Of a stretch of 64,000 nt of DNA, positions 3,454 through 62,120 are shown one piece after another. Within the stretch, counting starts at the first letter, position 1; the number at the start of each line of letters is the position of its first letter. Source of the stretch: Mariniblastus sp. Lineage in GTDB: Bacteria > Planctomycetota > Planctomycetia > Pirellulales > Pirellulaceae. Position numbers and translations under genes: made by a program. Location: positions 62,001-126,000 of the forward strand of contig JAKVBG010000006.1 in the NCBI GenBank assembly GCA_022447605.1, given 5' to 3'. The notes beneath the pieces are model-generated. The model saw only the letters and a list, made by a program, of their open reading frames with translations. It did no database searches and had not been told where the DNA came from.

Positions 3454-4837
<1,384 letters not shown>

Positions 4838-4892
4838 GGGAGAAGACGTGAAGTATGGAACGTGGACGGTTCATTCTAGCGAAAACAGAATT

Positions 4893-5477
4893 CTAGTGGT
4901 TCGACGAATAAATATCGACGAGAAATAGGATTGCATCCCGTTTTCCAATGTTCTTGATCGAATGGTCAACGTCGGCAGGGTATTGCACACTATCGCCTTT
5001 GCCCAGTTCCACCCTGATATCGCCCGACTGGATCTCAATCAAACCGGTTTGCACCGTCAGGAATTCACGGGTTCCCTGGAAATGAGCTGCACTATCCAGA
5101 CGCCCTTGGGGGGGCAGGGTCACTTCATAGAATTCGACATCTTTCTCGAGGTTCAGTGGCGACAGTGTACGGATCCGGCAATTCTCATCATCGCGAAAAA
5201 CAGATTGCTCATCGGTCTTGCGTATGACCTCGACCCGCTGCTCGGAGGTGGCCCCTTCCACCAGATCCGCCAGGGAAATCCCAAACGCCTGGGCGATGCG
5301 GAAGGCGACCGAAAGGGTCGGGTTGGCCGAACCCCGCTCGACCTGGCTGAGCATCGACCGGCTGACACCGCTGGAGGAAGCCAACTGCTGTAGCGTCAGA
5401 TTGTGGCGCTTCCTCAATTGACGAATATGCTCACAAACATATTGGCTGAAAGGTTCAATTTCTGTCAATTCAATCAC
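4893..5477 (-). CDS. XRE-family regulator with cupin domain
   Basis: A 194-residue transcription factor. Residues about 15-75 form an XRE/Cro helix-turn-helix (LTLQQLASSSGVSRSMLSQV, then GSANPTLSVAFRIAQAFGIS). Residues about 110-190 form a small cupin barrel (YEVTLPPQGRLDSAAHFQGT, then VQYPADVDHSIKNIGKRDAI) that in this family usually senses a small metabolite. The start is a GTG at 5477. The gene is divergent from tdh, with a 183-base gap that holds a 22-bp perfect palindrome, and lies 55 bases upstream of hisD. The arrangement suggests control of the threonine degradation genes and of itself, and perhaps read-through into hisDCB; this is inference. The ligand is unknown. Confidence 0.88.
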   Translation of the reverse strand: MIELTEIEPFSQYVCEHIRQLRKRHNLTLQQLASSSGVSRSMLSQVERGSANPTLSVAFRIAQAFGISLADLVEGATSEQRVEVIRKTDEQSVFRDDENCRIRTLSPLNLEKDVEFYEVTLPPQGRLDSAAHFQGTREFLTVQTGLIEIQSGDIRVELGKGDSVQYPADVDHSIKNIGKRDAILFLVDIYSSNH

Positions 5478-5535
5478 CTGACTGGTGAATTCACTCGTTT
5501 CTGCACACCCGACCGGACGGGATGTTGGTATAACG

Positions 5536-5548
5536 GAAATAATATTTC
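5536..5548. promoter_or_regulatory. Short AT-rich inverted repeat
   Basis: GAAATA-A-TATTTC, a perfect 13-base inverted repeat 59 bases upstream of the XRE-cupin GTG. It could be a second operator half or a promoter element of the regulator gene. Its shortness and AT-richness make chance occurrence possible. Confidence 0.3.
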
Positions 5549-5597
5549 AGGTAACTTGAAGTTTGATGCCCGATTTACGGATAACCCTTCTTCCAAA

Positions 5598-5619
5598 ATA
5601 GTGGATTTTAATCCACTAT
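5598..5619. promoter_or_regulatory. 22-bp palindrome, candidate operator
   Basis: ATAGTGGATT, two central T bases, then AATCCACTAT: ten-base arms with no mismatch. It sits 41 bases upstream of the tdh ATG and 120 bases upstream of the divergent XRE-cupin start. XRE-family dimers typically bind such dyads next to their own gene, so this is the best candidate operator for the regulator. It is immediately followed by TATAAAAG, which could be part of the tdh promoter. The dyad is seen directly; its use is inferred. Confidence 0.65.
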
Positions 5620-5660
5620 AAAAGAAACAAAATGGCCGTTGTTTGAATTTGAAGGATAAT

Positions 5661-6767
5661 ATGTCGACTTCCTTACCCGCCTCCATGCCCGCCATTTGCA
5701 AGTTGAACGACGCGCCCGGTCTGAACTTCTGCCAGGACGTGCCCGTGCCAGAGCCGGGACCTCGCGATGTCCTGGTGGCGGTTACCCACGCCGGCATCTG
5801 TGGCACCGATCGCCATATTTATGAATGGGACGCCTGGAGCAGAAACCGGGTCAAACTCGGGATCACCACCGGGCACGAATTTGTCGGCCGCGTCGTGGCC
5901 GTCGGCGAGGCAACCCAGCGAATCGAGGTCGGCCAAAGGGTCAGTGCAGAGGGACATATCGGGTGTGGTTTCTGCGAAGCGTGCCGCACAGGAAACGGTC
6001 ATATCTGTGAAACGGTCGATATTCTGGGCATCGACTGCAACGGTTGCTTTGCTCCTTTCATCAGCGTTCCGGAAACAAATATCTGGCCCGTACACCCCGA
6101 AATCCCGAACAAGGTCGCAGCCGTTTTTGACCCGCTGGGAAATGCCGTGCATACGGTAATGGCCGCAGGTGTCAGTGGAAAAACTGTCTTGATCACCGGT
6201 GTCGGCATCATCGGACTGATGGCCGTTACGGTTGCCAAGGCAGCCGGGGCCACACGTATCTTTGTAACGGACGTGGACCCTCGTCGCCTGGAACTCGCCA
6301 TGAAACTCGGTGCCGAGCAGTCCTTTGACGCCCGGCAACCATGGGTGGACAAGTTGCGTCAAACCTGCCGGGGTGGCCCCCAGGTCCTGCTGGAAATGAG
6401 CGGTCACGCTACGGCCATTCGCCATGGACTGGAAGCTCTGCACAACGGCGGCAGGGCAGCGCTGCTGGGCATTCCTGCCGATGAGGTGAAGCTCGACCTG
6501 TCGGAGTTGATTATTTTTCGCGGCGCCACGGTGTTGGGAATCAACGGCCGAAAGATGTTTGAAACCTGGTACCAGATGGAGAACCTGATCCTGTCCGAGC
6601 AACTGGAACTCGACTCGATCATTACCCACCAAATTGACATGAAGGACTTTGAAACCGGGTTTGCCATGATGCAGTCGGGAGAAGCGATCAAGGTCGTAAT
6701 GAAAATTCCACAATCTGAGGGAGAAGCATGCCAAACAGTCAATTCGACCAGCGAACAGCTGAGTTGA
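5661..6767 (+). CDS. tdh: L-threonine 3-dehydrogenase
   Basis: Zinc-dependent medium-chain dehydrogenase of 368 residues that oxidises L-threonine with NAD to 2-amino-3-oxobutyrate. Evidence: catalytic zinc region GICGTDRHIYEWD followed by TTGHEFVG, structural zinc cysteines in CGFCEACRTGNGHICE, the Rossmann segment VLITGVGIIGLMAV, and the threonine-dehydrogenase-type ending with ITHQIDMKDFETGFAMMQSG. The ATG at 5661 is chosen because GAAGGA lies five bases upstream; a TTG at 5643 is less likely. The 3' end overlaps kbl by 40 bases, so the two are surely co-expressed, and tdh-kbl is the classic pair for threonine breakdown to glycine and acetyl-CoA. Confidence 0.95.
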   Translation: MSTSLPASMPAICKLNDAPGLNFCQDVPVPEPGPRDVLVAVTHAGICGTDRHIYEWDAWSRNRVKLGITTGHEFVGRVVAVGEATQRIEVGQRVSAEGHIGCGFCEACRTGNGHICETVDILGIDCNGCFAPFISVPETNIWPVHPEIPNKVAAVFDPLGNAVHTVMAAGVSGKTVLITGVGIIGLMAVTVAKAAGATRIFVTDVDPRRLELAMKLGAEQSFDARQPWVDKLRQTCRGGPQVLLEMSGHATAIRHGLEALHNGGRAALLGIPADEVKLDLSELIIFRGATVLGINGRKMFETWYQMENLILSEQLELDSIITHQIDMKDFETGFAMMQSGEAIKVVMKIPQSEGEACQTVNSTSEQLS

Positions 6768-7903
6768 TTTCCAGCCTGACGGAATCGGGACAGTTAAAAC
6801 CTTTTTACGACATCACCACTCCCATGCGACCGGTCGTCAACATCGACGGCAAGGGGGACGTGTTGGTGCTGTGTGCCAATAATTATCTCGGCCTGGCTGA
6901 TCACCCGGAGGTTATCGAAGCCGGTATCCAGGGACTCCGCGATTACGGGGCAGGGACCGCATCGGTACGGTTTATCTGCGGTACCCTGGATTGCCACCGT
7001 CGACTGGAACAGAAGATTGCCGAATTCGTCGGCACACCCAGTTCCTTGAGTTACGTCAGTTGCTGGAATGCCAACGAGGCACTGTTCCCCACGCTGGTTG
7101 GACCGGAAGATGCCGTCCTGTCCGATGCGCTGAACCACGCCAGTATCATCGACGGCATGCGCCTGATGGCCAAGAGCGTGACCAAGAAAATCTACCCGCA
7201 CAGTGACCTGGAGCAACTGGAAAAGTTGCTGCAAGAGACCCAGGACCATCCCACCCGCTGGGTGATTACCGACGGCGTGTTCAGCATGGAAGGGGATGTG
7301 GCCCACCTGCCGGAAATTGCCGCGCTCTGCCGGCAATACGATGCGATGTTGGTGGTCGATGATTCCCACGGTGTCGGCGTACTGGGTCAGCGGGGACGGG
7401 GGACGCATGAACATTTTGACCTGTTCGGTGAAATTGACGTACTGACCGGCACGCTAGGCAAGGCACTGGGAGGCGCGGCCGGAGGCTATATCGCCGCCTC
7501 GGAATCGGCCATTCAAGTCCTGGAACAGCGGGCGCGACCCAGCCTGTTTTCCAATGCCTTGCCGGCCACGGTTGCCTACAGTGCGCACAAGGCGATGGAA
7601 GTGGTCGAGAATGACCCGTCGATCGTGGCACGACTGCACAGCAATGTGGCCGCTTTCCGAACTGGCCTGGCCGATCTCGGGTTTGAATGCACGCCTTCCC
7701 CGACCGCGATTATCCCGATCATGATCGGCGATGAAGCGGAAGCGATCCGAAAATCGGCTCGGCTGTTTGAACTCGGCGTCCTGGCGATCGGCTTTGCCTT
7801 CCCGGTCGTCCCCCAAGGTGAAGCCCGGATCCGCGTCCAGGTTTCCGCCGCGCTGACCGATGACCATATCCAGCAGGCCATGGACGCATTTGCCAAACTC
7901 TAA
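6728..7903 (+). CDS. kbl: 2-amino-3-ketobutyrate CoA ligase (glycine C-acetyltransferase)
   Basis: PLP enzyme of the alpha-oxoamine synthase family, 391 residues, that cleaves 2-amino-3-oxobutyrate with CoA to glycine and acetyl-CoA, the step after Tdh. Seen: NNYLGLADHPEV near the N-terminus, GAGTASVRFICGT, the PLP-contacting DDSHGVGVLGQRGRGTHEHF, and the Schiff-base lysine in TGTLGKALGGAAGGYIA. A GAGGGAG ribosome-binding site lies just before the ATG at 6728, inside the end of tdh. The 40-base overlap with tdh is larger than usual for this pair. Alternatives in the same family (BioF, ALA synthase) are excluded mainly by the tdh context and the close match to Kbl motifs. Confidence 0.95.
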   Translation: MPNSQFDQRTAELISSLTESGQLKPFYDITTPMRPVVNIDGKGDVLVLCANNYLGLADHPEVIEAGIQGLRDYGAGTASVRFICGTLDCHRRLEQKIAEFVGTPSSLSYVSCWNANEALFPTLVGPEDAVLSDALNHASIIDGMRLMAKSVTKKIYPHSDLEQLEKLLQETQDHPTRWVITDGVFSMEGDVAHLPEIAALCRQYDAMLVVDDSHGVGVLGQRGRGTHEHFDLFGEIDVLTGTLGKALGGAAGGYIAASESAIQVLEQRARPSLFSNALPATVAYSAHKAMEVVENDPSIVARLHSNVAAFRTGLADLGFECTPSPTAIIPIMIGDEAEAIRKSARLFELGVLAIGFAFPVVPQGEARIRVQVSAALTDDHIQQAMDAFAKL

Positions 7904-32650: not shown

Positions 32651-35167
32651 CTACTTTTCATCCGGTTGGGCCGGTACCGATTCGAGTTCGACCGACAGCT
32701 CCTTGGCCAAGTTCCGGTAGCCGGGGTTCTGGTCATCGATCTTCAACAGTTGATTGACAAATTTAACGGCCTGGGGATAGTCCCCGGTCTGGCGGTAATA
32801 CGTCGACAACGCCAACAGGTATTGCGGGATGTCGGGGGCCTGTTCGTGGGCCGCCAGCAGGTACTCTTCAGTCTTATCCAACTCGTTCTGCAGATAACAG
32901 GACATGGCAAAACGGTAGAGCAGGGCGTGGGTATTGGGCAAATCGCGACTGCGGCGGACATCCGTGGCCAACAGTTCGTGCTCCTGTTTCCGAAGTTCGA
33001 CTGCTTCCTGCAGCAGCTTCTGGATCTGTTCGGTAATCTGTTTCAGCTGCGCTACCGAAACCTGGTTCCCCGAAGACCTCATCTCCCGATCCATCTGCCG
33101 CGCGTTGGATTCCAGCAGGGCGGCCAGGTTGGTCCTCGGTCCGGCAAAATGCGGATCCAGGCGAATGGCCGCGCGGTACGCGTCGATCGCCTGCTGGCTC
33201 TGATTCATCAACTCGTACAGGCTTCCCAGCATCAAGTGATTGCGGGGCCGGTCATTCTCCAGCAAGAGCGATTCCTTGTACTCTTGCAGCGCTTTTTCAA
33301 ACGACCTGCGCTGATCCGCATCGGACCAGCGGTTTCGCAACTCGGCCGGGATACCGGCGGCAACGGCCGCGGCGCTGATCCGCACGCGCCGAAACGGGTG
33401 GTCGGTCAACTGGTTGACGATTTCCACCAGTGGCTCAAGTTGTTTTTGCAGCTCGGTCGCCGATGTCGCGCGTTCCAGGATCCGCGCAATGGCCGTGTCG
33501 ATCCTGGGCAGCGCCGCGCTGACCACCTTGGCATCACTTTCCCGAGTTGCCTCGATCGCCGTTTCCAGCGACTGCTGGCTCGTGTCCTGGCCCAGCGCCT
33601 GCAGGGCCGTCGCCCGAAAGATGGCCGGGGCCGTCGCGTCCAGGGCCAGCTCCATCATCAGGGCCGGGCCCTCTTCAGCCGACGTCTTGGCCTGGGCCAA
33701 CTGTTCGTAATACCGGGTCTTGACCGGCGCGCCGGTCGCCCCCCCATACCACTGGTTCACCGCATCCAGCATCTGCTGGTCAACACGCTTCAACTCGGCA
33801 CCCACGGCGGGGTTGCCAAGCTCTGCCTGGATCAACCAGTCCAGGTACTGTTTGAGACCTTCCTGGTCGGCCGGGTCGAGTTTCGATTTGTCAATATGAC
33901 AGGCCGTGCACGCATTCGGGGTCCCATACTTCACACTCATATCGGGACGGGGCACCCGCAAACTGTGATCGCGGCGCGGATCGACATCCATGTAGGTCGT
34001 CGATGGCATGTGGCACTCGACGCAACTGGCACCAGGGGTTCCCATTTCGTGGTGATGGTGATTGACTGAATCGTATTTGCCCGCTGGGTGCTGGTGACAG
34101 GACGTGCACAACCGGTTGTCGTCATATTTCAACTTGGCCGAATGCGGGTCGTGACAATCGGTGCAACGGATCCCCTGGTGATACATTTTGCTTTGAATGA
34201 AGGAACCATAGACATAGTCCTCGTCCCGAATTTGACCATCATCCTGGTAGATCTGGTCGGCCAGCACCTGACAGGCAAAAAAGTCGTCAAAGCGTTCACC
34301 CGGCCGGAAACCATTGCACAGCCCGGTCCGTCTCGAATGGCAGGGCGCACACGCCTCGACCTGTGGTACGTTACTGGCCGTCTTCAACTTGGCCAGTCCG
34401 TAACCATGCTGCTTGTCCCAGAACAAGCCTTTATTCTGCGCCAGCTCCACATGCAGACTGCCCGGGCCGTGACACGCCTCACAACTGACGTCAATCTCTG
34501 AAAACGTGGTATGGAAATGCCCCGTCCTGGCATCATAATTCCGTTCCAGGTTGGTGCTGTGGCACTCGGCACACGACGTGTTCCAACGCTGCGTGATCCC
34601 GGTCCAGTGCAACGGGTCGGTCGACTCGATCTTCTCGTCCACATCGGGAGGTGTCAGGTAGAACCATCGCTTCCGCTCGGTGTCCCAGGAAAGCCTGAGG
34701 ACCTGGAGCTGGCCCACCTCATCCTCTTTAGCATCCGGGTCGCGGCGCAATTCCACCATGTACTGCTGCAACGGCTCCACCCCGAACACGTACTTGACCT
34801 CGAAGTCCTGCATGTCACCATCGGGGCCTTCGGTATTGACCATGAACTTATCCCCCTGGCGGAAGACCGTCGAGGTCACGCCGTAGTGGGGGATCTTCGT
34901 CCCATCAAACTTTGCCAGTACCGTCTCTTCACTGGCCACGTCCATCGCCAGGTCGTGGTGGGAACCATGAAACAGGTCCGCCTCGGCCTGGTGGCACTCG
35001 ATACAGGACTCCCGCCCCACGTAGGTCGCCCGAACCTCGTCACCCAGCGTATGGTTGTAATCGACGTACAGGTAACCACCGACCACGGCTGCCAGAACGA
35101 TGATCGCGGCCAAAACTGGACGCCAAACAGGGCGTTTCGGTCGGGAGTTGTCTTTACCGTTATCCAT
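32651..35167 (-). CDS. Eight-heme cytochrome c with HEAT and TPR repeats
   Basis: An 838-residue exported protein. A single N-terminal hydrophobic segment (about 16-33) anchors or exports it. Eight CxxCH heme sites follow: CIECH, CAECH, CEACH, CAPCH, CTDCH, CTSCH, CVECH and CTACH, all within about the first 420 residues, in the manner of cytochrome c554-like proteins. Residues about 470-600 look like HEAT repeats and 610-830 like tetratricopeptide repeats (LMLGSLYELMNQSQQAIDAY, FAMSCYLQNELDKTEEYLLA). An electron-transfer role in the periplasm is safe; its partner is not known. Fusion of this heme block to repeat scaffolds is a planctomycete-type architecture. Confidence 0.9.
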   Translation of the reverse strand: MDNGKDNSRPKRPVWRPVLAAIIVLAAVVGGYLYVDYNHTLGDEVRATYVGRESCIECHQAEADLFHGSHHDLAMDVASEETVLAKFDGTKIPHYGVTSTVFRQGDKFMVNTEGPDGDMQDFEVKYVFGVEPLQQYMVELRRDPDAKEDEVGQLQVLRLSWDTERKRWFYLTPPDVDEKIESTDPLHWTGITQRWNTSCAECHSTNLERNYDARTGHFHTTFSEIDVSCEACHGPGSLHVELAQNKGLFWDKQHGYGLAKLKTASNVPQVEACAPCHSRRTGLCNGFRPGERFDDFFACQVLADQIYQDDGQIRDEDYVYGSFIQSKMYHQGIRCTDCHDPHSAKLKYDDNRLCTSCHQHPAGKYDSVNHHHHEMGTPGASCVECHMPSTTYMDVDPRRDHSLRVPRPDMSVKYGTPNACTACHIDKSKLDPADQEGLKQYLDWLIQAELGNPAVGAELKRVDQQMLDAVNQWYGGATGAPVKTRYYEQLAQAKTSAEEGPALMMELALDATAPAIFRATALQALGQDTSQQSLETAIEATRESDAKVVSAALPRIDTAIARILERATSATELQKQLEPLVEIVNQLTDHPFRRVRISAAAVAAGIPAELRNRWSDADQRRSFEKALQEYKESLLLENDRPRNHLMLGSLYELMNQSQQAIDAYRAAIRLDPHFAGPRTNLAALLESNARQMDREMRSSGNQVSVAQLKQITEQIQKLLQEAVELRKQEHELLATDVRRSRDLPNTHALLYRFAMSCYLQNELDKTEEYLLAAHEQAPDIPQYLLALSTYYRQTGDYPQAVKFVNQLLKIDDQNPGYRNLAKELSVELESVPAQPDEK

Positions 35168-35787: not shown

Positions 35788-37242
35788 ATGGACCCTGCTT
35801 TGGAACCAACAGATAAATCCACGCGATACGGAATTCGCATGGGACTTAGGCAATCGACCTTCAAGATCGCTGTCACCATCACCCTGGTGATCGCCGCCCA
35901 GCTGGTAAGTTCCCAGACAGGTTGGTCGTATCAATTGACGGAAAATTCTTCGTCTTCCTCGGTAACCAGCCTGAGCCAAACCTCCGGACCAAAAGTGGCC
36001 GAAGTCGTCGTCACCGGCAACAAGGAACTGCCGATGTACGCGTTAAACCGCAACATTTCGACCCGAGCCGGACGGTTTTTCGACGCCGACCTCCTCCAAC
36101 ATGATGTCGATCGACTCTGGCGAATGCCGGAAGTCAAACGGGTCAACGGGCCTTATGTCAAGGAAACACCAGACGGCCTGGTCATCACCATCGATATTGT
36201 CGAACGCCAGTTGATCCGTTCCATCCAGATCATAGGAAACCGCGGCCTTTCGGACCGCGAGTTGCGCAAGAAAACGAATTTGACCGAGGGGGCGCCCCTT
36301 GATCTCAATGCCGTTCGCATGGCCAAGACGCGAATCGAAGACCATTACCAACAAAAAGGTTATCCCCGCACTCAGGTCGAGGTGATGCAGGACGAGAATA
36401 TCGAGTTGGGGGACGTCGTATTCCTGATACACGAAGATCAACAACAGAAGATATGGGACGTCAAATTCGAAGGTAACTCCTTTGCATCCGATGCTCGGCT
36501 GAAAACCATGATCCAATCCAAACCGGGAATCCTGAAAGTCGTGGGTGGACTGGCCAAGCGAAACGAGATCGACCAAGACGTTGTTCGCCTGGCCAATTAC
36601 TACAAGAGTTTCGGATATTTTAATTGCCGAATAGGACGGGAGTTGGAGGAGAGCAATGATGGCCGTTGGATGACCGTCCGTTTCATCATTGATGAAGGCC
36701 CCCGTTACAAGATACGCAATGTCTCATTCCTGGGCCAAAACGCCTACTCCCATGAACAACTCTCAAAGCTGGTCGATTTAAAACCGGATGACAAAGCGAT
36801 GCCGGAATTCAACGCCTCGAAGATGAACGAGGATGTGGTTTCCCTGCGCGAGTTATACGGCTCGGAAGGTTTTGTTTTTGCCAATGTCGAAGCCGAACCA
36901 CGGTTCCTGGAAGAACCCGGAATGCTGGACCTCGTCTATAAGATTGAAGAAGGTGAGCGTTACCGGGTTGGCCAAATCAACGTACATATCGAGGGCGGTG
37001 GTTACACCAAAAGGGAAGTCGTGATCAATCGTCTCTCGCTGAAACCGGGCGACTGGATCGACTCCAACAAAATCACCGCCTGTGAACGCCGGCTCGGTGC
37101 CGCACAGATCTTTGCTGGCCGGCAGGATCCGGGGGGTGCCGCAGCCCCAAAAATCGTGGTCCGAACACCAGAACTCAAACAACTCGAAGAGGGGCAACGG
37201 ACCGCTGGGGCCGTTTCCAATTCCGGCAACCGGATTCGTTAA
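35788..37242 (+). CDS. POTRA-only Omp85/BamA N-terminal protein
   Basis: A 484-residue protein with a signal segment (FKIAVTITLVIAAQLVSS, residues about 25-42) and five POTRA repeats but no beta-barrel. The repeats run about 69-140, 141-219, 220-305, 306-390 and 391-464, each with the typical strand start (VAEVVVTGNKEL, IRSIQIIGNRGLSD, IWDVKFEGNSFASD, IRNVSFLGQNAYSH, VGQINVHIEGGGYTKR). POTRA domains catch outer-membrane proteins in the periplasm. In ordinary BamA the barrel follows in the same chain; here it is encoded separately 370 bases downstream. The frame starts at 35788; an ATG at 35839 just before the signal helix is an equally good start. Confidence 0.88.
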   Translation: MDPALEPTDKSTRYGIRMGLRQSTFKIAVTITLVIAAQLVSSQTGWSYQLTENSSSSSVTSLSQTSGPKVAEVVVTGNKELPMYALNRNISTRAGRFFDADLLQHDVDRLWRMPEVKRVNGPYVKETPDGLVITIDIVERQLIRSIQIIGNRGLSDRELRKKTNLTEGAPLDLNAVRMAKTRIEDHYQQKGYPRTQVEVMQDENIELGDVVFLIHEDQQQKIWDVKFEGNSFASDARLKTMIQSKPGILKVVGGLAKRNEIDQDVVRLANYYKSFGYFNCRIGRELEESNDGRWMTVRFIIDEGPRYKIRNVSFLGQNAYSHEQLSKLVDLKPDDKAMPEFNASKMNEDVVSLRELYGSEGFVFANVEAEPRFLEEPGMLDLVYKIEEGERYRVGQINVHIEGGGYTKREVVINRLSLKPGDWIDSNKITACERRLGAAQIFAGRQDPGGAAAPKIVVRTPELKQLEEGQRTAGAVSNSGNRIR

Positions 37243-37284
37243 CCAATCCTAAGACAACCACATTACCTGAGATGGGTCAAAACC

Positions 37285-37545
37285 ATGAAAACCGACAAAA
37301 CAAAACGGACTGGAAAATGGCTACTGGGAATGGCTTCCCTGGTATTGTTCCTGGGGGGTTGCGCTTCTGGACCATTTGGAAACATCTTTAAACTGCCCAA
37401 GGAAGGCCCCCTTCCCCCACCCGTAATGATCAGCCCGGACGGGAAACTGCAAACGAATGACCAGATCAACAGTCATGAAGCAGATTCCGACGGAACGGCA
37501 CCTGACATCATGATTGACACGTCCGATTTGGGCGAAAACAGATAA
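37285..37545 (+). CDS. Small lipoprotein between split Omp85 genes
   Basis: An 86-residue predicted lipoprotein. Residues 1-26 form a lipoprotein signal peptide with the lipobox LGGC (LGMASLVLFLGGCASGPFGN); the mature part is short, polar and acidic near the end (SHEADSDGTAPDIMIDTSDL). I do not recognise a family. It lies 42 bases after the POTRA gene and 69 bases before the barrel gene, all on the plus strand. By position it may be an accessory lipoprotein of the same assembly machine, as BamC or BamE are elsewhere, but there is no sequence similarity I can point to. Its motif CASGPFGN echoes CLSGPFKT of the barrel protein. Confidence 0.75.
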   Translation: MKTDKTKRTGKWLLGMASLVLFLGGCASGPFGNIFKLPKEGPLPPPVMISPDGKLQTNDQINSHEADSDGTAPDIMIDTSDLGENR

Positions 37546-37614
37546 ACCGCCTGTCCATGAATCGTTCCGACAACGACCGTCGAAACTGCGACCCGATTTA
37601 AAATACTGAATGAC

Positions 37615-39270
37615 ATGAGACTCCGAAGACTCTTACCCGTTCGAATAGGAATGATCAGCCTGGCGGTTTGCTCCGTTGCCGTCAGCGGTTGCCTGTCCGG
37701 CCCATTCAAAACCAAGCTGCCCGAAACGCTACAGGAGAGTCCGCGCGTATCCCCGGATGACATGGACCCGGCCAACAACCAGCGATCTTTGGAGCATTAC
37801 CTGGAACCACAAACCAACCTGCGAACACCGGGGCATCCCACCGTTGCGTCACTCCCTTCGTCCGGCGGGCCGAACGTCATGGCATCGAGCCAGGAACAAT
37901 CACCTGACTCGGACACGGTCGTCTACCGCGCCCAGAGTCCGGATGGTTTCGGCACTCAGGAAACAGGACGTGCTGACAGGATCCCGGTGCAGGGGAATCC
38001 GCAGAGTCACGTCCAGCAGACGGCACGACAATACCCGGAATTGAATGTTGCTCCGCCAGGCACCATTTACAATCCAGCCGACCAGGACCCAGTGACCGGC
38101 GGCTCCATCAATACAGGTGCCCCCAACGAAATGAATCCACTGGTCCAACTGGACCCGATGGGCGGCGTGGTCGGTTTCCCGACGAATTACGCCGACCTGG
38201 ATGTTTACGTGGCAGAAACCCAAACCGGCAAGATCAATTTTGGGGGTGCCTACAACTCGGAAAACGGTGTCGTGGGCCAGTTTGTCATCGATGAACGGAA
38301 CTTCGATATCCGCGCCTTTCCTCGCAGTTTTCGCGATATCTGGAACGGCAATGCCTGGCGCGGAGCCGGGCAGACGTTTCGACTGGAACTGGTCCCCGGG
38401 CGACAGGTCCAGCGTTACCTGGTCAGTTTTTCCGAACCCTACCTCTTCAATACGGGCATCAGTTTCAGCAGCAGTGCCTACCTGTTCGACCGCCGCTATT
38501 TCGATTGGAGCGAACAGCGGCTGGGCGGAAGACTGGCCCTCGGTTACCGCTTGACGCAGGATTTGTCCATCAGCACCGGAATCCGCATGGAAAATGTCAA
38601 GCTTTATGACCCGAGAAATGTACCGCCACCCGGGTCGGCTGAACTCAACCGTTCCGTGGGTGATAACGACCTGTACATGGCTCATGTCGGATTGATCCGG
38701 GACACCCGCGATCATCCGTACATGGCAACCGAAGGGACGTTTTTTTCCATGACCTTCAATCAAGGTTTTGGAGAATACGATTTTTCCCGCGGTGACTTTG
38801 ACCTGCGGAAATATTGGCTGATGTACCAGCGACCTGATGGATCGGGGCGTCATACCGTCTCGTATGGAACGCGACTCGGGTTCTCTGGTACCGATACGCC
38901 AATCTTTGAAAACTATTTCGCGGGTGGATTTTCTACCATGCGTGGCTTTTCCTTCCGTGGCGCTTCCCCGGTTCAAAACGATATCGTCGTGGGGGGAGAA
39001 TTTCAGTGGTTGAACACACTCGAATACATGTTCCCCTTGACGGCTGACGACATGGTCAAGGGCGTGCTGTTCTGCGATTACGGTACCGTCGAAGAAAAAA
39101 TCGAAATCCAGCAAGACACCTTCCGCGTGGCGCCCGGATTTGGTTTTCGCGTCCACATGCCGGCCGCCGGCATCGGCGCTCCCCTGGCATTTGATTTTGC
39201 TTTCCCGGTTGCCAAGGCCCCGACCGACCAGGAACAGATGTTCAGTTTTTACATGGGCGTGCTCCGGTAA
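37615..39270 (+). CDS. Omp85/BamA beta-barrel lipoprotein without POTRA domains
   Basis: A 551-residue protein. Residues 1-26 are a lipoprotein signal with lipobox VSGC (Cys26); 27-190 form a proline-, asparagine- and glutamine-rich linker; from about 194 begins the Omp85 barrel (LDVYVAETQTGKINFGGAYN, then DERNFDIRAFPRSFRDI). The strand-loop motif MRGF at 441-444 corresponds to the conserved VRGF of the L6 loop in BamA. The chain ends with FSFYMGVLR, a typical last barrel strand. No POTRA domain is present, so it should work with the POTRA protein encoded upstream. Membrane insertion of other outer-membrane proteins is the expected role; TamA-like or D15-only function is an alternative. Confidence 0.88.
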   Translation: MRLRRLLPVRIGMISLAVCSVAVSGCLSGPFKTKLPETLQESPRVSPDDMDPANNQRSLEHYLEPQTNLRTPGHPTVASLPSSGGPNVMASSQEQSPDSDTVVYRAQSPDGFGTQETGRADRIPVQGNPQSHVQQTARQYPELNVAPPGTIYNPADQDPVTGGSINTGAPNEMNPLVQLDPMGGVVGFPTNYADLDVYVAETQTGKINFGGAYNSENGVVGQFVIDERNFDIRAFPRSFRDIWNGNAWRGAGQTFRLELVPGRQVQRYLVSFSEPYLFNTGISFSSSAYLFDRRYFDWSEQRLGGRLALGYRLTQDLSISTGIRMENVKLYDPRNVPPPGSAELNRSVGDNDLYMAHVGLIRDTRDHPYMATEGTFFSMTFNQGFGEYDFSRGDFDLRKYWLMYQRPDGSGRHTVSYGTRLGFSGTDTPIFENYFAGGFSTMRGFSFRGASPVQNDIVVGGEFQWLNTLEYMFPLTADDMVKGVLFCDYGTVEEKIEIQQDTFRVAPGFGFRVHMPAAGIGAPLAFDFAFPVAKAPTDQEQMFSFYMGVLR

Positions 39271-39396
39271 TCAGGGACGGCCTATCCGACCCTCGGCAGA
39301 TCATCGACGAGGTTCCCTTATCCTGGCCTGTTGCCGGCCTGTTCAGGGCCGGGGCGGGAAACCCGAAATCCTTCGTATGGACCGAGGCAAAACACG

Positions 39397-40179
39397 ATGG
39401 ACCCTCGAAGCCCGACAGACCCGGACAAGATCCGTGAGGTCGCCTCCGAGTTGAGCCATCTCAACAGCTTGTTGATCATCACCGGGGCAGGAATGTCAGC
39501 CGATTCCGGCTTGCCCACCTACCGCGGTGTCGGCGGTCTCTACAACGACGAGTCGACCGAGGAAGGGATGCCGATCGAACAGGCCTTATCCGGTTCGGTC
39601 TTTCAAACCAGGCCCGAGATCACCTGGAAGTACCTGGGGCAAATCGAGCAATCCTGCCGGGGCGCCCAAATTAACCGGGGGCATGAGGTCCTCGCTCTGA
39701 TGGAGCGTCACTTCGAGCGTTTCTGGATCCTGACACAGAATATCGATGGGCTCCACGCGGCGGCTGGCTGCCGCAACGTCATTGAAATCCATGGCAACCT
39801 GTACCGGCTCTCGTGTACCGCCTGCGAGTTCCGGGTTTCACTCGATGATTATGCCAATTTGCCACTGCCACCCAGCTGCCAGCAGTGTGGTGCGATGATG
39901 CGCCCCCAGGTAGTCCTGTTTGATGAAGCCCTTCCGGAAAAGGAACTCTCCACGTTGTACCGGGAAATGCAAAACCCGTTCGAGGCAGTCATCACGATTG
40001 GGACTTCAAGTCACTTTCCCTACATCGTACAACCGGTGCTGATGGCCCAGCAAACAGGCCGGTTGACGGTCGAAATCAACCCGGTGAAGACGCGTGTCTC
40101 CGACATCGTGGATGTGAAATTATCGTCCCCGGCCGCAGCAACGCTGGATGAACTGTGGCGCCAACTGGCCGGGCAATGA
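39397..40179 (+). CDS. Sir2-family NAD-dependent protein deacylase
   Basis: A 260-residue sirtuin. It removes acyl groups from lysines while using NAD. Evidence: LIITGAGMSADSGLPTYRGV for the NAD pocket, FWILTQNIDGLHAAAGCRNV, IEIHGNLYRLSCTACE with the catalytic histidine and first zinc pair, PPSCQQCGAMMRPQVVLFDE with the second zinc pair, and ITIGTSSHFPYIVQP. All four zinc cysteines (C-x2-C twice) are in place. I start at the ATG at 39397, which gives a normal short lead; an upstream ATG-less extension to 39331 is not conserved in character. It is preceded by the barrel gene with a 126-base gap. Confidence 0.92.
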   Translation: MDPRSPTDPDKIREVASELSHLNSLLIITGAGMSADSGLPTYRGVGGLYNDESTEEGMPIEQALSGSVFQTRPEITWKYLGQIEQSCRGAQINRGHEVLALMERHFERFWILTQNIDGLHAAAGCRNVIEIHGNLYRLSCTACEFRVSLDDYANLPLPPSCQQCGAMMRPQVVLFDEALPEKELSTLYREMQNPFEAVITIGTSSHFPYIVQPVLMAQQTGRLTVEINPVKTRVSDIVDVKLSSPAAATLDELWRQLAGQ

Positions 40180-41482: not shown

Positions 41483-44400
41483 TTAGCTGAGCGACAATTC
41501 TGACAAGAGGGAAGCCCTCTCGTCATCATCGGCATCGAAGTCCGCATCCCGCAGGTCGGTATCCAAACCATTCAGCAATGAGTCCACGGAACCGGACAAC
41601 GTCAAATCACGCCCGTTGACCATGATGAAGGAGGGGCCGTCACCACCGTCATCATCTCCCTGGTCGCCCTGGTTCCCGCCACCAAACATCGGGATTTCAT
41701 CCGAGTCCTGCATCGCCTCGATATTCTCGAAGGCAACATCCTGGAACCCGATGGCAAATTTCCAGACACCCTGACCGGGACCCGTCATGTACAACTGACG
41801 ACCGTCCTGCAGCGGATCACCCAGCACATCCAGGAAATCACCATCCCTCTGCGGATCTGCCAACTCGCTCGCCTCGGGCAGGTTGCCATCCACGTGCATC
41901 CGGACCGACGTACTCGGCATCACGCTGAAATGATTCTGCTGATCCGTCCCATCGAGTCGTGAAAATTCGACGGACGAGTAGTTGATTCCCGCAAAGGATG
42001 GTCGTGCATAGGAACCGGGTGCGTTCAGGTTGGTGATCTGTTGACCATCCATATAGTAATCGTACGCAGCGGTCACCCCGCGGTCATTGGCATAAACCCG
42101 GTCGCTGCCCGGGCCACCCACGAGATTCAAAGCACCCTGCAATTTGGCAAAATTCCCATTGTCACTGGCCAGCGTTGAACCGACGTTGAAGTTGTCATCA
42201 CCACCCTGCCCATAGACGGTCACATCCGAATCGGGGGTCGTGGCATAGACGTTGACGACATCATTGCCGATACCCGCATCCAAAACGACGTTACCGGCAC
42301 CAATCGTCCGATGAACGAACATCAAGTCGAACCCGGATCGAGTATTGACCGTCAAATCCTGGGACAACGAGCCATAGAGCTTGACGATGTCATCATTATC
42401 GCCCGTATCCACTACGACCTTTTCCTGGTTTTGGTTGTAGACGACATTTTCCGTCTTACGAGAAACGTAGGTTGGGTAAACATCAACCCGGTCAATCAGT
42501 GAGGAACCGAAAACCCGCAACTCATCCGTGCCACTGGTACCACTATCCCTCGCATCGATGTCCCGCACATTTCGGCCGGAAAAATCGATGTCGACCAAGT
42601 CGGAATCTTCACCGCCATCGATCAGCATACGGGCGTAGGCGAAATCGGACACATAGAACCGGTCGTCACCCTCGTGCCCCCAGGCAGCGATGAATGAATG
42701 GACCACACTGTTTTGCATCACGAACAGGTCATCACCCTCGTTGCCGTCCATGCGAATGCTGTCAACGCCACGCGCCTCGTCAACCACGATCGAATCATCG
42801 CCGTCGCCAAGGATGACTCGCAGGTAACGCATCTGGTTATTCTTAAGCGTCAAGCTATCGTCACCACCATACATATTGACCGTCACGACTTCGACCATCT
42901 CGTTGAAAATCACCTGCTCGGAAGCGAGAACAATTTTCTCATCGTCAATCGTCATGTCGTCGTTGCTGGAGGTACCCGACAGCAGAATCCGGTCTGTGCA
43001 GGCGCATAACCCGGAATCATCTACGAAAACGAATCGCTGATCCCCATTGCCGACCGCAACGCGATAGATATCGCCACCCGTTCCACCGTCGACAACGACC
43101 GAGCCTTGGGTAGCCTGGCGAACCGTAAAGACATCACGACCGCCGCCGCCTTCCACTCTCAGGGTATTGGAAGCCAGCACACCGCGGACATCGAATACAT
43201 CGGCCAGTGAATCGGAACCGTGTACTTCAATCCCTGCCAAGTCATCAAGTACCGAGAAACCTCCCTCTTCGGCCGTATAATGGATCGTGGCCGGGGCGAT
43301 TCCCGTTATCTGGTTATCGGTGATTGTCACGTGGCGTCCGCCACCTCCCCGGTTGCTGACAAACAAACGGTTCTGGCCGGCGCCACCATCGATAAACAAC
43401 TCACCCTCGATCAGGTTGGTATTGCCCAGGTTGTCCGGGGCATCATTCGAGATATTGAATGAATCGTTACCGTAACTTCCGTAGAGGTGCAGGACCTTGT
43501 CGTTGGCCTGGATCGAGAAGACATCATCCCCACCGGCTCCATCCAGGGACAACTCTTCGATCCCCGGGTAAACAAATTCGATCTTCTGATTATTGAAGGT
43601 CAGGTCGTTGTACCGCATCAGCAACACATCGTCGCCCTCGGTCCCCTCGGCAAACATCTGATCGTATTCACTGCCAACACTGTCGTGAATTCGCAACAGT
43701 CCACTGGTCAGGGCACGCAGGGAGAGACGGTAGACATCATCACCGGTACCGCCGTGGAGATCGACCAACGCTCGGATACTCTCATCCACCCAGAAGTAGT
43801 CGTTGCCACCCATGCCACGAATGACCGTATTCAGCGTGGTGTAATCGACATAGAAAGAATCGGCTGCATCGGTGCCCACCAATTCTTCGACTTCCAGGAA
43901 TCGATGCAACTCATCCACCCTGCCGCGATGACCATCGACGACACGGAACTCATGTCCCTCGCTGTCGATCACCTGCAGGACGTCGTAGCCAGGTCCACCC
44001 CGCAACGTCAAACCATCATCGGAGGTCACCAGGCCATTGCTCATATCGAGAATGATCGTATCGTCACCACCCATCGCGTCGATATTCAGAATATTCAGCG
44101 AATTCATCTCAAAGGTATCGGTGGTCACACCATCAAACTCGACATCGATCCAGTCTGTGTTCGTGGCGTTACGTCGAATGACGATCGTGTTGTCGCCATT
44201 ATCACCGCGCACCGTCGGATTGAGGGCAAACAGTTTCGACTCGGCGACTTTGATACTCCAATTGTTATCGGTATTGGCATATTCCACGAACGTCCAGGCA
44301 TTGAACGGATCAGAGGGGTCGAGATGGGTCGAACCGTAGCTGCTCCATCGATTGACACCCTCGGCATCGTCGCGGTGGTAGTCACCCAAACCTTGTTGCA

Positions 44401-45604
44401 ACAACTGGGAAGGAGAATCAAACACGACTTCCGGTTCACCGTCCAAACCGAACGACGTATGGCCCATGGCGACATACGCGCCGGGGCGCAGACTCGGCCC
44501 GGTCGCGGTAAAGCCGATCGCGGCGATCCCCATGGGCCCCACGTCAATCGAGGGGGCCAGGAAATCGAAATCGGGATTGGCAATTTCACCTTGGTTCTCG
44601 ATCTGGTTGGTGGCCGCGTCGATCTGGTACCAGCGAATGGCCGAACCACCGCCTGCTCCCGTGACCGTGTGCACCGCCCAAAGATAACCGTCCACCAATT
44701 GCACATTGGAGGTAAAGAAGGGCGAGACGTTGTCGATCGCTTCACCGGATGGCTGACGCGCATCGGGAGCGGCTTCGTAAAAGGGAACCGTGATCTCGGT
44801 CGGCGCAGACAGTCCGGGGGAAACACCGTTCAAGTCAACCACGTCCGTGCGGACGATCGTCGTGCCGGAATTGAAAACACCCAAGCCGACCGCATCGCCA
44901 CTTGTATTGTCATTCACATCGTTCGCATAGTGGATGCAACTGCCATAAACGGCCGGGTTCAAAGTTTCGTACCGGACCATGTTGAACAGGTTCGGCTCCG
45001 GGTGAAACAGGTCACCCTTGGGGACCCCGTAAACGGCCGATGTCGGGCTACCACTACCCATTTCGGCTGCCAGCACCAGACCGGAGGCATCCACACCCAT
45101 GGTCAGGTTAGCGACCTTGTTCAGGCCATCCGAGTCGGCCACGAACTGCAAGCTCTGCCAGCTGCCCGTCGGGTCCGCGCTGTCGGACCAACCGATAAAG
45201 ATTTCGTTGGTAAAGGCTCCGCCCTCGTCCAGGGCCACAGTGAACCACTTGCTTGCACCGTGATCAAAAACGACACGTGGGTTCGACAGGGCCGTGTCGA
45301 CCGTGGCGCCCATGTCGGTCCAGAACTGGTCCAGGGAGACCGATTGCAACACGTTGCCCGCCTTGTCAAAGACGGAGACATTCCCCTCCATCATCTGGAC
45401 GATATGGTCGTTGGTCATATCGGCCGACACGTTGGGGGTCAACGATGTCGTCTCGGTACCGAGTGTGGCACTGGTGAAATTCAAGCCGACATCAATCGCC
45501 AGCAACTGGCGTGCTTCGAGCTGTTGGTAATCACAACGACCGCGACGGTTCTGGTGGGAGCGATTCGGTTTGTCGTTTCGACGACCTTTTCGACGAGAGC
45601 TCAT
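41483..45604 (-). CDS. Giant LEPR-XLL protein with RTX-like acidic repeats
   Basis: A 1373-residue protein. After a very basic start (SSRRKGRRNDKPNRSHQNRR) comes LEARQLLAIDVG, the LEPR-XLL type motif found at the N-terminus of many giant planctomycete surface proteins and thought to replace a normal signal. Residues about 40-470 have no recognised family but are beta-rich. From about 500 onward come at least a dozen GGDD/GNDD-type units (GGDDTIILDM, GDDVYRLSL, GDDVFSIQAND, GNDSFNISND, GDDSIVVDEA, GDDRFYVSDF, GNDVVNVYATT, GGDDNFNVGST), roughly 45 residues apart, a degenerate calcium-binding RTX-like array. The C-terminus is acidic. Probably an exported, calcium-stabilised surface or adhesion protein. 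Confidence 0.85.
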   Translation of the reverse strand: MSSRRKGRRNDKPNRSHQNRRGRCDYQQLEARQLLAIDVGLNFTSATLGTETTSLTPNVSADMTNDHIVQMMEGNVSVFDKAGNVLQSVSLDQFWTDMGATVDTALSNPRVVFDHGASKWFTVALDEGGAFTNEIFIGWSDSADPTGSWQSLQFVADSDGLNKVANLTMGVDASGLVLAAEMGSGSPTSAVYGVPKGDLFHPEPNLFNMVRYETLNPAVYGSCIHYANDVNDNTSGDAVGLGVFNSGTTIVRTDVVDLNGVSPGLSAPTEITVPFYEAAPDARQPSGEAIDNVSPFFTSNVQLVDGYLWAVHTVTGAGGGSAIRWYQIDAATNQIENQGEIANPDFDFLAPSIDVGPMGIAAIGFTATGPSLRPGAYVAMGHTSFGLDGEPEVVFDSPSQLLQQGLGDYHRDDAEGVNRWSSYGSTHLDPSDPFNAWTFVEYANTDNNWSIKVAESKLFALNPTVRGDNGDNTIVIRRNATNTDWIDVEFDGVTTDTFEMNSLNILNIDAMGGDDTIILDMSNGLVTSDDGLTLRGGPGYDVLQVIDSEGHEFRVVDGHRGRVDELHRFLEVEELVGTDAADSFYVDYTTLNTVIRGMGGNDYFWVDESIRALVDLHGGTGDDVYRLSLRALTSGLLRIHDSVGSEYDQMFAEGTEGDDVLLMRYNDLTFNNQKIEFVYPGIEELSLDGAGGDDVFSIQANDKVLHLYGSYGNDSFNISNDAPDNLGNTNLIEGELFIDGGAGQNRLFVSNRGGGGRHVTITDNQITGIAPATIHYTAEEGGFSVLDDLAGIEVHGSDSLADVFDVRGVLASNTLRVEGGGGRDVFTVRQATQGSVVVDGGTGGDIYRVAVGNGDQRFVFVDDSGLCACTDRILLSGTSSNDDMTIDDEKIVLASEQVIFNEMVEVVTVNMYGGDDSLTLKNNQMRYLRVILGDGDDSIVVDEARGVDSIRMDGNEGDDLFVMQNSVVHSFIAAWGHEGDDRFYVSDFAYARMLIDGGEDSDLVDIDFSGRNVRDIDARDSGTSGTDELRVFGSSLIDRVDVYPTYVSRKTENVVYNQNQEKVVVDTGDNDDIVKLYGSLSQDLTVNTRSGFDLMFVHRTIGAGNVVLDAGIGNDVVNVYATTPDSDVTVYGQGGDDNFNVGSTLASDNGNFAKLQGALNLVGGPGSDRVYANDRGVTAAYDYYMDGQQITNLNAPGSYARPSFAGINYSSVEFSRLDGTDQQNHFSVMPSTSVRMHVDGNLPEASELADPQRDGDFLDVLGDPLQDGRQLYMTGPGQGVWKFAIGFQDVAFENIEAMQDSDEIPMFGGGNQGDQGDDDGGDGPSFIMVNGRDLTLSGSVDSLLNGLDTDLRDADFDADDDERASLLSELSLS

Positions 45605-61800: not shown

Positions 61801-62120
61801 CGCCGCGGAACGCCGCCTGAAATCGGTATCAGGTAGACATCCCTGTTCCCGTCGTACTCGGCACTGAAGGCGATCGATTGACCATCGGGTGAAAACCGGG
61901 GACTGGTCTCCAGCCCTTCATGCGACGTCAGCCGACGGGGATGGGATCCGTCGATCTGGGCAATCCACAGGTCGCCATCGTAGACAAAGGCAATGTTGCT
62001 TTGACTGACCGCCCCGTCTGAGACCATCCGGGTCAAGTCCAGGGCGAACAGCTGGCTGGCATAAGCCGATACCAGCAAGAGCACGGAGTAAGTCGTCAGC
62101 AGGCGAAAGATGGAGGTCAT
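58857..62120 (-). CDS. Tricorn-like protease, S41 family
   Basis: A 1087-residue exported protease. A signal peptide (MTSIFRLLTTYSVLLLVSAY) starts at ATG 62120. The N-terminal two-thirds are beta-propellers of the TolB/tricorn type (FSPDGQSIAFSAEYDGNRDV, SPDGSQVAYIPIAER). Near residue 800 comes ELAVGHHRVGGG, holding the expected catalytic histidine, then a PDZ-like segment, then LIDETAGSGGDMLPWM with the nucleophilic serine. The length is close to that of the archaeal tricorn protease (about 1070). It probably degrades peptides in the periplasm. An in-frame extension upstream to 62345 has low-quality sequence and is excluded. Confidence 0.93.
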   Translation of the reverse strand: MTSIFRLLTTYSVLLLVSAYASQLFALDLTRMVSDGAVSQSNIAFVYDGDLWIAQIDGSHPRRLTSHEGLETSPRFSPDGQSIAFSAEYDGNRDVYLIPISGGVPRRLTFHPSPDNVEGFTPDGKSVLFSTNRNLHTRRYHRLYTVPVEGGFPKSLPIPNGLRASYSPDGSQVAYIPIAERFNQWKNYRGGTCSRIWIFNNRDYSVQQIPQPEGRCNDTDPVFVGSQVFFRSDRNGEFNLFSYDPQSGAMRQWTDYTDFPINRITESADSIIYEQAGLLHLFQPANGETNVIPLSLTTDQTEIRPRFVTGKKWIRNLDVSPSGKRAVAEFRGEIVTLPAKKGDVRNLTESPGVHERSPAWSPDGSKIAYFSDADGEYKLHIARQDGKGDVQVFEVEGAGFYEAPRWSPDGSRISYRDNSWSLYVFELASGASTKICSEPKFGPAGMRGLHHSWSPDSQWLAYTVNTPAMIQQAFVYHVASGQSFPVSDGMSEVSEPVFDRNGKYLYFISSTDAGPVKHWFAMSNNDMELSNAIYLVVLEDDGPNPLARQSDEEEAKAEPDKTKGKAGQEGAKPGQVPTVKIDFDGLDQRILALPTPAARYSNLRAGPGGTLLFIKRDREGDSELASFSLESRETTTLLDKASRFVVTPDGKKLLYVTSGGYGIAPTQGKIDVAKTGLNVEAIEVRIDPRAEWKQIFNEVWRINRDYFYDPGMHGCDWVAMKSKYEPLVDQCVTRSDLNRVLMWMCSELAVGHHRVGGGQQRLEADSVAGGLLGADYEIVNNRYRFKKVFGGLNWNGQLRAPLTEPGVRVRPGEYLLAVQGAPLTAEDNLHRHFENTSGKIVELRVGPNPDGSDSRIVKVVPVGNESQLRNRDWVEGNLRKVHQATGGRVAYVYVPNTTGAGHTYFKRYFFPQTDKQAIIVDERYNGGGQIADYYIDHLRRPYISHWATRYGQDLVTPSASIAGPKVMLIDETAGSGGDMLPWMFNKLKLGTLVGRRTWGGLVGVLGFPVLMDGGTVSAPNLAIWTEDGFIVENAGVPPDVEVEQLPADVIAGRDPQLEKAIEIALQQLEANPPKQYRKPPYPIRVRK

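Follow-up and report, generated by a model that had tools for sequence, protein, structure and literature searches.

A BamA probably made of two separately exported chains, cut within the fifth POTRA domain, in Mariniblastus and other Pirellulaceae

We analysed a stretch of 64,000 nucleotides (the window) from Mariniblastus sp., a member of the family Pirellulaceae in the phylum Planctomycetota (positions 62,001 to 126,000 of contig JAKVBG010000006.1, assembly GCA_022447605.1), in which the Omp85 protein BamA appears to be encoded by two neighbouring genes. The host genome is a draft of 5.0 Mb rated 94% complete. Three open reading frames (ORFs) follow one another on the plus strand at 35788-37242 (484 amino acids), 37285-37545 (86 amino acids) and 37615-39270 (551 amino acids), separated by 42 and 69 bases and all in the same reading frame. 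Pfam recognizes five POTRA stretches in the first product (whole-protein E value 3.5e-50) and an Omp85 barrel in the third (E 1.6e-45), where it finds no POTRA domain. On visual inspection, residue 26 is a lipobox-like cysteine in both the small protein (LFLGGC) and the barrel protein (AVSGC). A barrel-less five-POTRA protein, a small lipoprotein and a POTRA-less Omp85 barrel with its own lipobox, closely spaced on one strand, had been reported in a preliminary description made from the letters of this DNA, and the ORF coordinates, the Pfam matches and our inspection of the lipoboxes agree with it. The features of the locus are as follows.

35788..37242, plus strand: POTRA chain, 484 amino acids, with a signal peptide without lipobox, POTRA1-4 complete and POTRA5 through beta2
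35989..36207, plus strand: POTRA1, PF07244 match
36214..36435, plus strand: POTRA2, PF07244 match
36448..36699, plus strand: POTRA3, PF07244 match
36706..36954, plus strand: POTRA4, PF07244 match
36958..37173, plus strand: POTRA5 minus its last strand (beta1-alpha1-alpha2-beta2), about residues 391-462, start placed by eye
within 35788..37242, plus strand: end of the POTRA chain, a short unconserved tail after POTRA5 beta2
37285..37545, plus strand: small lipoprotein, 86 amino acids, putative lipid cysteine codon at 37360-37362
37615..39270, plus strand: barrel chain, 551 amino acids, with a lipoprotein signal peptide and its putative lipid cysteine codon at 37690-37692
37693..38187, plus strand: low-complexity linker of about 165 residues, from the lipid anchor to POTRA5 beta3
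37927..37944, plus strand: recurrent short motif R[GA]Q[SN]P[DE] within the linker, here RAQSPD
38188..38220, plus strand: POTRA5 beta3 on the barrel chain, residues 192-202, YADLDVYVAET
38221..39267, plus strand: Omp85 beta-barrel with the RGF-type motif MRGFSFRGASP

The fifth POTRA is among the five stretches of the Pfam result but was not listed at E<=0.001 in the PF07244 scan of the contig, and its end was set where a profile of unsplit BamA reaches position 445, at residue 462.

The two larger products share out a single BamA between them. Against the NCBIfam BamA model TIGR03303 (741 positions), the POTRA chain matches positions 3-367 with 189.2 bits and the barrel chain positions 384-738 with 172.2 bits; each score lies below the cut-off of 297.15, whereas the two halves combined reach 350.9 bits, above it. 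The BamA order of five PF07244 domains followed by PF01103 is kept across the two neighbouring chains, each of which holds a part of the fifth POTRA, and what is one polypeptide in BamA is here two ORFs with separate signal peptides. The barrel retains an RGF-type motif, and the RGF motif in loop 6 of BamA has been described as conserved and essential (PMC3871556). Comparison with solved structures matched the POTRA chain to residues 75-395 of E. coli BamA (5d0o). The scores of the two halves stay far below the cut-offs of the TamA model NF047950 (26.5 and 40.2 bits, cut-off 625) and the TamL model NF052279 (40.4 and 21.6 bits, cut-off 400). Compared with the relative G286 (G, L and f numbers denote genomes, loci and families in our samples), the ratio of non-synonymous to synonymous differences (pN/pS) was 0.17 over 483 codons of the POTRA chain and 0.27 over the initial 323 codons of the barrel chain; pS was close to saturation in both (0.66-0.68). 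A full-length BamA elsewhere in the genome had been named as the result that would overturn this picture; none was found, as the 94% complete draft holds one detectable Omp85 barrel and one detectable POTRA cluster. The POTRA-less barrel is also the only PF01103 match at E<=0.01 in four split relatives assembled as single contigs (G073, G088, G126 and G285). This lack of a second detected Omp85 speaks for the locus filling the essential role of BamA, the insertion of outer-membrane proteins. Candidates for BamD exist in the host genome, where five matches to PF13525 exceed the cut-off, the best in a 456-amino-acid frame. It is likely, judging from these matches, that the locus encodes the cell's BamA as two co-directional genes, the products of which would be exported separately and work as a two-chain machine.

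The position of the cut was read from a profile of 803 positions built from E. coli K-12 BamA and eight insertion-free planctomycete BamAs. The POTRA chain covers positions 38-445 and the barrel chain 447-802, so the two halves together are one complete BamA from which no conserved segment has been lost. At 11 further split loci (including L074, a suspected frameshift), the match to the POTRA chains stops at 438-448, and that to the 12 barrel chains, of which one is a second barrel, starts at 435-451. Profile position 446 corresponds to E. coli residue 405, which puts the cut between residues 404 and 406, and beta3 of the barrel chain, at profile positions 450-460, corresponds to E. coli residues 411-421. 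As the N-terminal region of E. coli BamA with POTRA1-5 spans Met1-Arg421 (PMC3871556) and the topology of a POTRA domain is beta1-alpha1-alpha2-beta2-beta3 (PMC4930767), the POTRA chain stops after beta2 of POTRA5, and the barrel chain opens with beta3, from which the first barrel strand follows on. The break had been expected near the junction of POTRA5 and barrel; it falls inside POTRA5 instead. Likewise, the segment LDVYVAETQTG is conserved, as had been noted, and corresponds chiefly to the final strand of POTRA5, not only to a connector to the barrel.

Both sides of the cut are conserved. Beta3 is the middle strand of the POTRA sheet, and its hydrophobic alternation is retained in 94 split rows, with hydrophobic residues at position 453 in all 90 filled rows, at 455 in 96% of 91 and at 457 in 71% of 91. 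Beta2 of the POTRA chain has proline at 437 in 94/94 rows and hydrophobic residues at 439 in 94/94 and at 441 in all 93 filled rows. Past the profile match, the POTRA chain continues for a median of 22.5 amino acids, and the consensus of 59 chains contains no conserved strand in this tail. A mixed alignment of whole and half proteins was discarded, the POTRA-only rows being misaligned at about 11-20% identity to the window.

In Pirellulaceae, a split BamA is the norm. Among 24 relatives of the same genus, all 21 with both halves on the contig stretch are split, the other three being cut by contig ends, and no fused BamA was seen in this set. The 14 genomes drawn from other genera of the family comprised 13 split loci and one cut by a contig end, again with none seen fused. 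The preliminary description had proposed counting how often the halves are separate in planctomycete genomes; of 79 distinct named loci, obtained from the best 80 matches, 69 are split (13 of them identical in sequence to genomes of the family and genus samples), four are fused and six show barrels only, at contig ends. The tree places the four fused loci among other families of the order, outside Pirellulaceae. Split loci include those of Rhodopirellula baltica (L122), Blastopirellula marina DSM 3645 (L112), Rubripirellula obstinata (L126), Aporhodopirellula aestuarii (L141), Roseimaritima sediminicola (L151) and Stieleria species (L109, L138). At all 69 loci the halves are adjacent on one strand with the POTRA gene first; with ORFs taken from the first possible start (longest ORF), the spacing ranges from an overlap of 167 bases to a gap of 184, and 12 loci overlap by exactly 1 or 4 bases. 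Two genomes of family f5 are noted separately: G028, rated 99% complete, gave no PF01103 barrel and a marginal TIGR03303 match (E 0.0075), and G300, with a contamination of 6%, seemingly has two split pairs.

Signal peptides were called by a crude home-made rule, not by SignalP or LipoP, and an individual call may be wrong in either direction: R. baltica L122 was called a lipobox though an ordinary cleavage-like site follows, and lipoboxes visible by eye were missed at L025 and L067. Under this rule, the 106 barrel chains (first and second barrels together) divide into 74 with a lipobox, 28 with another signal peptide and four with none (L025, L039, L074 and L125), and the corresponding numbers for 95 POTRA chains are 34, 58 and three. 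The lipid anchor proposed for the barrel is thus present here and common in the family, but it is not universal. Barrels with a signal peptide without lipobox occur in Rubripirellula (L126), Aporhodopirellula (L141) and Stieleria tagensis (L109), and the barrels of metagenome-assembled genomes titled Pirellula (L137, L140, L142 and L146) likewise have a signal peptide but no lipobox.

Fused relatives carry insertions at the very site of the cut. Among 39 fused loci from class members hand-picked from the genome table, not drawn at random, nine have a short beta2-beta3 loop (families f22, f23, f24 and f25), and the remaining 30 carry 70-440 extra residues in this loop (20 in other Pirellulales families, seven in f21 and three in f20). 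These 30 resemble the split genes in the break point and in the low-complexity sequence found there, and differ in that the extra residues lie inside one protein of a single chain. The insertion therefore apparently preceded the split. In the wider phylum (148 genomes), the matches listed mostly run through the site or break at 423, inside the barrel, with exceptions such as the match in G165 (3-372).

The motif in the linker adds to this resemblance. In this motif R[GA]Q precedes S, N, D, G or Q, in most cases with P and D coming next. It occurs in 26/30 insertions of fused BamAs (47 copies against 1.6 in shuffled sequences), in 35/94 POTRA-chain tails (35 against 1.3) and in 58/94 N-terminal regions of first barrels (61 against 3.7). 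The protein bodies have it rarely (2/94 POTRA, 2/105 barrel), and none of 11 N-terminal regions of second barrels has it; the window has one copy, on the barrel side. Because the regular expression was chosen after examples had been viewed, the shuffle numbers describe an enrichment and are not a blind test. The presence of the motif on both sides of the cut across the family fits a break inside an ancestral insertion. In the DNA of the host genome, the pattern has four matches and its reverse five, a count not above chance; two of the four are in frame, one in the barrel linker and the other just after the lipid cysteine of another lipoprotein. Forward and backward counts elsewhere were 8 and 0 in G285, 5 and 2 in G073, 5 and 3 in G088, 4 and 1 in G030, 7 and 6 in G124, 11 and 3 in G043, and 20 and <=3 in G060. 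Among 34 loci read for R[GA]QSP[DE], many without an in-frame copy, it stands in frame in other planctomycete proteins with apparent signal peptides or lipoboxes (L201, L205 and L222-L224), just after the lipid cysteine in L201 and L224. R[GA]QSP[DE] is perhaps a short docking motif of the planctomycete envelope.

The number of splits was considered on two trees. In a tree of 134 rows, the main clade is split in all 91 of its rows, with a support of 100 in the Shimodaira-Hasegawa-like approximate likelihood-ratio test (SH-aLRT), and next to it lie families f4 and f9 (split) and f3 (split) together with f12 (fused, L050). A single origin is not rejected by the approximately unbiased (AU) test (one split clade, p 0.3). 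Against it stand the position of the fused lineage L050 among split ones and the bootstrap, in which only 4% of 200 trees unite the split rows in a single clade; a more careful tree of 44 rows needs two changes. These results leave a choice between a single split with a later refusion in f12 and a few splits. In the order of events that we favour, a fused BamA would first have acquired a long insertion in its beta2-beta3 loop, and a break inside this insertion would have followed, with the gain of a new signal peptide. A lipobox is found on the barrel chain of each of the neighbouring split lineages L041, L042 and L047. The lipid anchor may therefore have arrived with the split and been lost later; such losses may have occurred, for example, in Rubripirellula, Aporhodopirellula and the Pirellula-titled genomes. 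A broken BamA gene was also encountered in family f20 (L074, G149, 3768-6952). It was rejected as an independent second split and is probably a fused gene frameshifted within its linker: the barrel ORF lacks a signal peptide, and its first residues resemble, by eye, the linker of fused relatives. In the 134-row tree it still counts as split, whereas the reduced tree, the AU test and the counts of columns and motifs do not include it.

In 11 of the 24 same-genus relatives, a second POTRA-less barrel gene lies just downstream; the POTRA gene is found upstream in ten of these, and in the eleventh the contig is cut. The window has one barrel only, and L117 is a further locus with its own second barrel (the loci are L018, L019, L022, L023, L031-L034, L036, L037, L039 and L117). 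On the barrel tree the second barrels fall into two distinct groups, and at least two lineages have them; they mostly have no lipobox, and they retain beta3 (12 distinct rows) and the RGF-type motif, as LRGF or FRGF. Among three of them, pN/pS is 0.14-0.18, compared with 0.11-0.19 for the POTRA chains and 0.15-0.20 for the first barrels of the same genomes. Assembly of arm and barrel in trans is the simplest way to account for one arm gene next to two barrel genes under constraint. A stand-alone role for the second barrel is possible. We also put forward, as a speculation that is doubtful at present, that one arm might serve two tandem barrels through a strand-swapped POTRA5, giving two kinds of beta-barrel assembly machinery (BAM) complex, with R[GA]Q[SN]P[DE] docking the chains to a common envelope partner.

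The small lipoprotein between the two genes is a lineage-specific addition. It was matched in three of 60 genomes searched (the window, G286 and G005), in each of which it sits between the POTRA and barrel genes, and it gave no Pfam or NCBIfam match at E<=1, including none to the BAM lipoproteins BamB-E. Over its signal peptide and the first residues of the mature protein it is similar to the N-terminal part of the neighbouring barrel chain, with a score of 57 in both the window and G286, a score reached by 0/2000 and 2/2000 shuffles, respectively, which suggests a local partial duplication; the product may now be a separate lipid-anchored accessory. Were it instead an obligate third subunit bridging the two halves, its placement would be explained, as would its apparent constraint (pN/pS 0.22 over 86 codons against G286) and the fact that the POTRA chains of the same three genomes have no clear lipobox by eye, unlike the other same-genus chains seen. 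However, its restriction to these genomes and its likeness to the barrel N-terminus make such a role quite improbable, and since the three genomes may represent a single event, the link with a lost POTRA lipobox counts as one observation.

The surroundings of the locus were read from translations. Downstream of the barrel gene, an ORF at 39331-40179 encodes a 282-amino-acid protein that resembles a Sir2-type deacetylase. On the minus strand, 32651-35167 encodes an 838-amino-acid protein with many CxxCH motifs and a C-terminal part like tetratricopeptide repeats, which has the look of a multihaem cytochrome, and 41483-45604 encodes a 1373-amino-acid protein with an N-terminal LEARQLLA and a repetitive acidic body, which looks like a planctomycete extracellular protein.

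The most likely mechanism, as far as sequences can indicate one, is domain completion in trans. The POTRA and barrel chains, each with its own signal peptide, would be exported separately; beta3 of the barrel chain would then insert into the POTRA5 sheet of the POTRA chain, and the connection between POTRA5 and the barrel would thereby be rebuilt without a covalent bond in a physical complex of the two, with lipid anchors, where present, presumably holding the parts at the membrane. One two-chain BamA could also be built differently, with a POTRA5 that folds without the beta3 of the barrel chain, either two-stranded or completed by its own tail, and with the chains held together mainly by lipid anchors and by contacts of POTRA5 with the periplasmic turns of the barrel. 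The many lipoboxes on both chains are in keeping with this arrangement, as are published BamA structures in which POTRA5 touches the periplasmic turns (PMC4950039), and position 457 is G or A in 26/91 rows, so that beta3 is not equally well kept everywhere, which weighs against strand completion. Nevertheless, the hydrophobic alternation of beta3 is kept beside an unconserved linker, the tail of the POTRA chain is short and not conserved as a strand, and part of the family has no lipobox; we therefore consider this arrangement unlikely.

The remaining explanations deny that the two genes are a BamA in two parts. An error of assembly or sequencing, or the decay of a fused gene, could be suspected from the shared frame of the three ORFs in the window and from the probable frameshift at L074, and the preliminary description had advised checking for a missed frameshift. 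This is excluded by the conservation of the split together with separate signal peptides, each later ORF having its own. Across the 69 loci, the halves share a frame in 24 and differ in 45, the one-third expected by chance, so frame conservation as a sign of read-through is rejected; moreover, the split is present in many genomes, including isolates, and both genes are constrained. For the window and for Pirellulaceae we regard error or decay as already refuted by the relatives and its likelihood as negligible. It is also very improbable that the halves are special-role paralogues, TamA-like or part of a secretion system, while the real BamA was missed in an incomplete genome. The host genome is indeed a draft, and G293, a fifth single-contig genome, has an additional partial PF01103 match (E 8.3e-10), which counts against the locus being the sole source of BamA; yet there are five POTRAs, TIGR03303 is the best match of both halves, and no other Omp85 was detected in the host genome or in the four single-contig relatives mentioned above.

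To our knowledge, BamA is regarded as a protein of one chain that is conserved in all diderm bacteria. Compared with BamA of other bacteria (YaeT, Omp85), the pair described here is alike in its five POTRAs, Omp85 barrel and RGF motif, in being the only Omp85 detected and in jointly spanning the family model, and differs in its two exported chains cut between beta2 and beta3 of POTRA5, in the lipidated barrel chain with a long linker and, in some relatives, in having two barrels per arm. The classification of Heinz and Lithgow (2014; PMC4104836) includes lipid-anchored and N-terminus-less Omp85 proteins, and the part of its text available to us does not mention Planctomycetes. Its TamL or 'Lipo' subfamily of Bacteroidetes/Chlorobi shares an N-terminal lipid anchor, but there the lipid is followed by three POTRAs in a single chain, whereas here it precedes a linker and a POTRA-less barrel that matches the TamL model weakly. 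Its 'noNterm' proteins likewise have an Omp85 barrel without N-terminal POTRAs; unlike them, the barrel here retains POTRA5 beta3 and has its POTRA chain encoded next door. Speth et al. (2012; PMC3422733) used BLAST and detected BamA in every published planctomycete genome, with no mention of a split in the sections available. POTRA counts in BamA that name Planctomycetes (PMC8871954) likewise mention none in the accessible portion, and in that of a 2026 review (PMC13067283) 'split' refers only to phylogeny and nothing concerns planctomycetes. As far as their accessible text goes, PMC8567305 deals with BamA in fractions of Tuwongella and E. coli, and PMC6604945 uses 'separate genes' for two-partner secretion. 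Our searches for BamA or Omp85 with Planctomycetes or with a split, made in a collection with few subscription papers and preprints, gave no description of a split BamA.

Each half falls under the family cut-off, which may explain why family-based annotation would name neither of them BamA. A natural split throughout a family suggests that the POTRA arm needs no covalent link to the barrel, even right beside the strand that enters the barrel wall. Pirellulaceae would thus offer a natural system for asking what the connection between POTRA domains and barrel does, one in which arm and barrel can vary independently.

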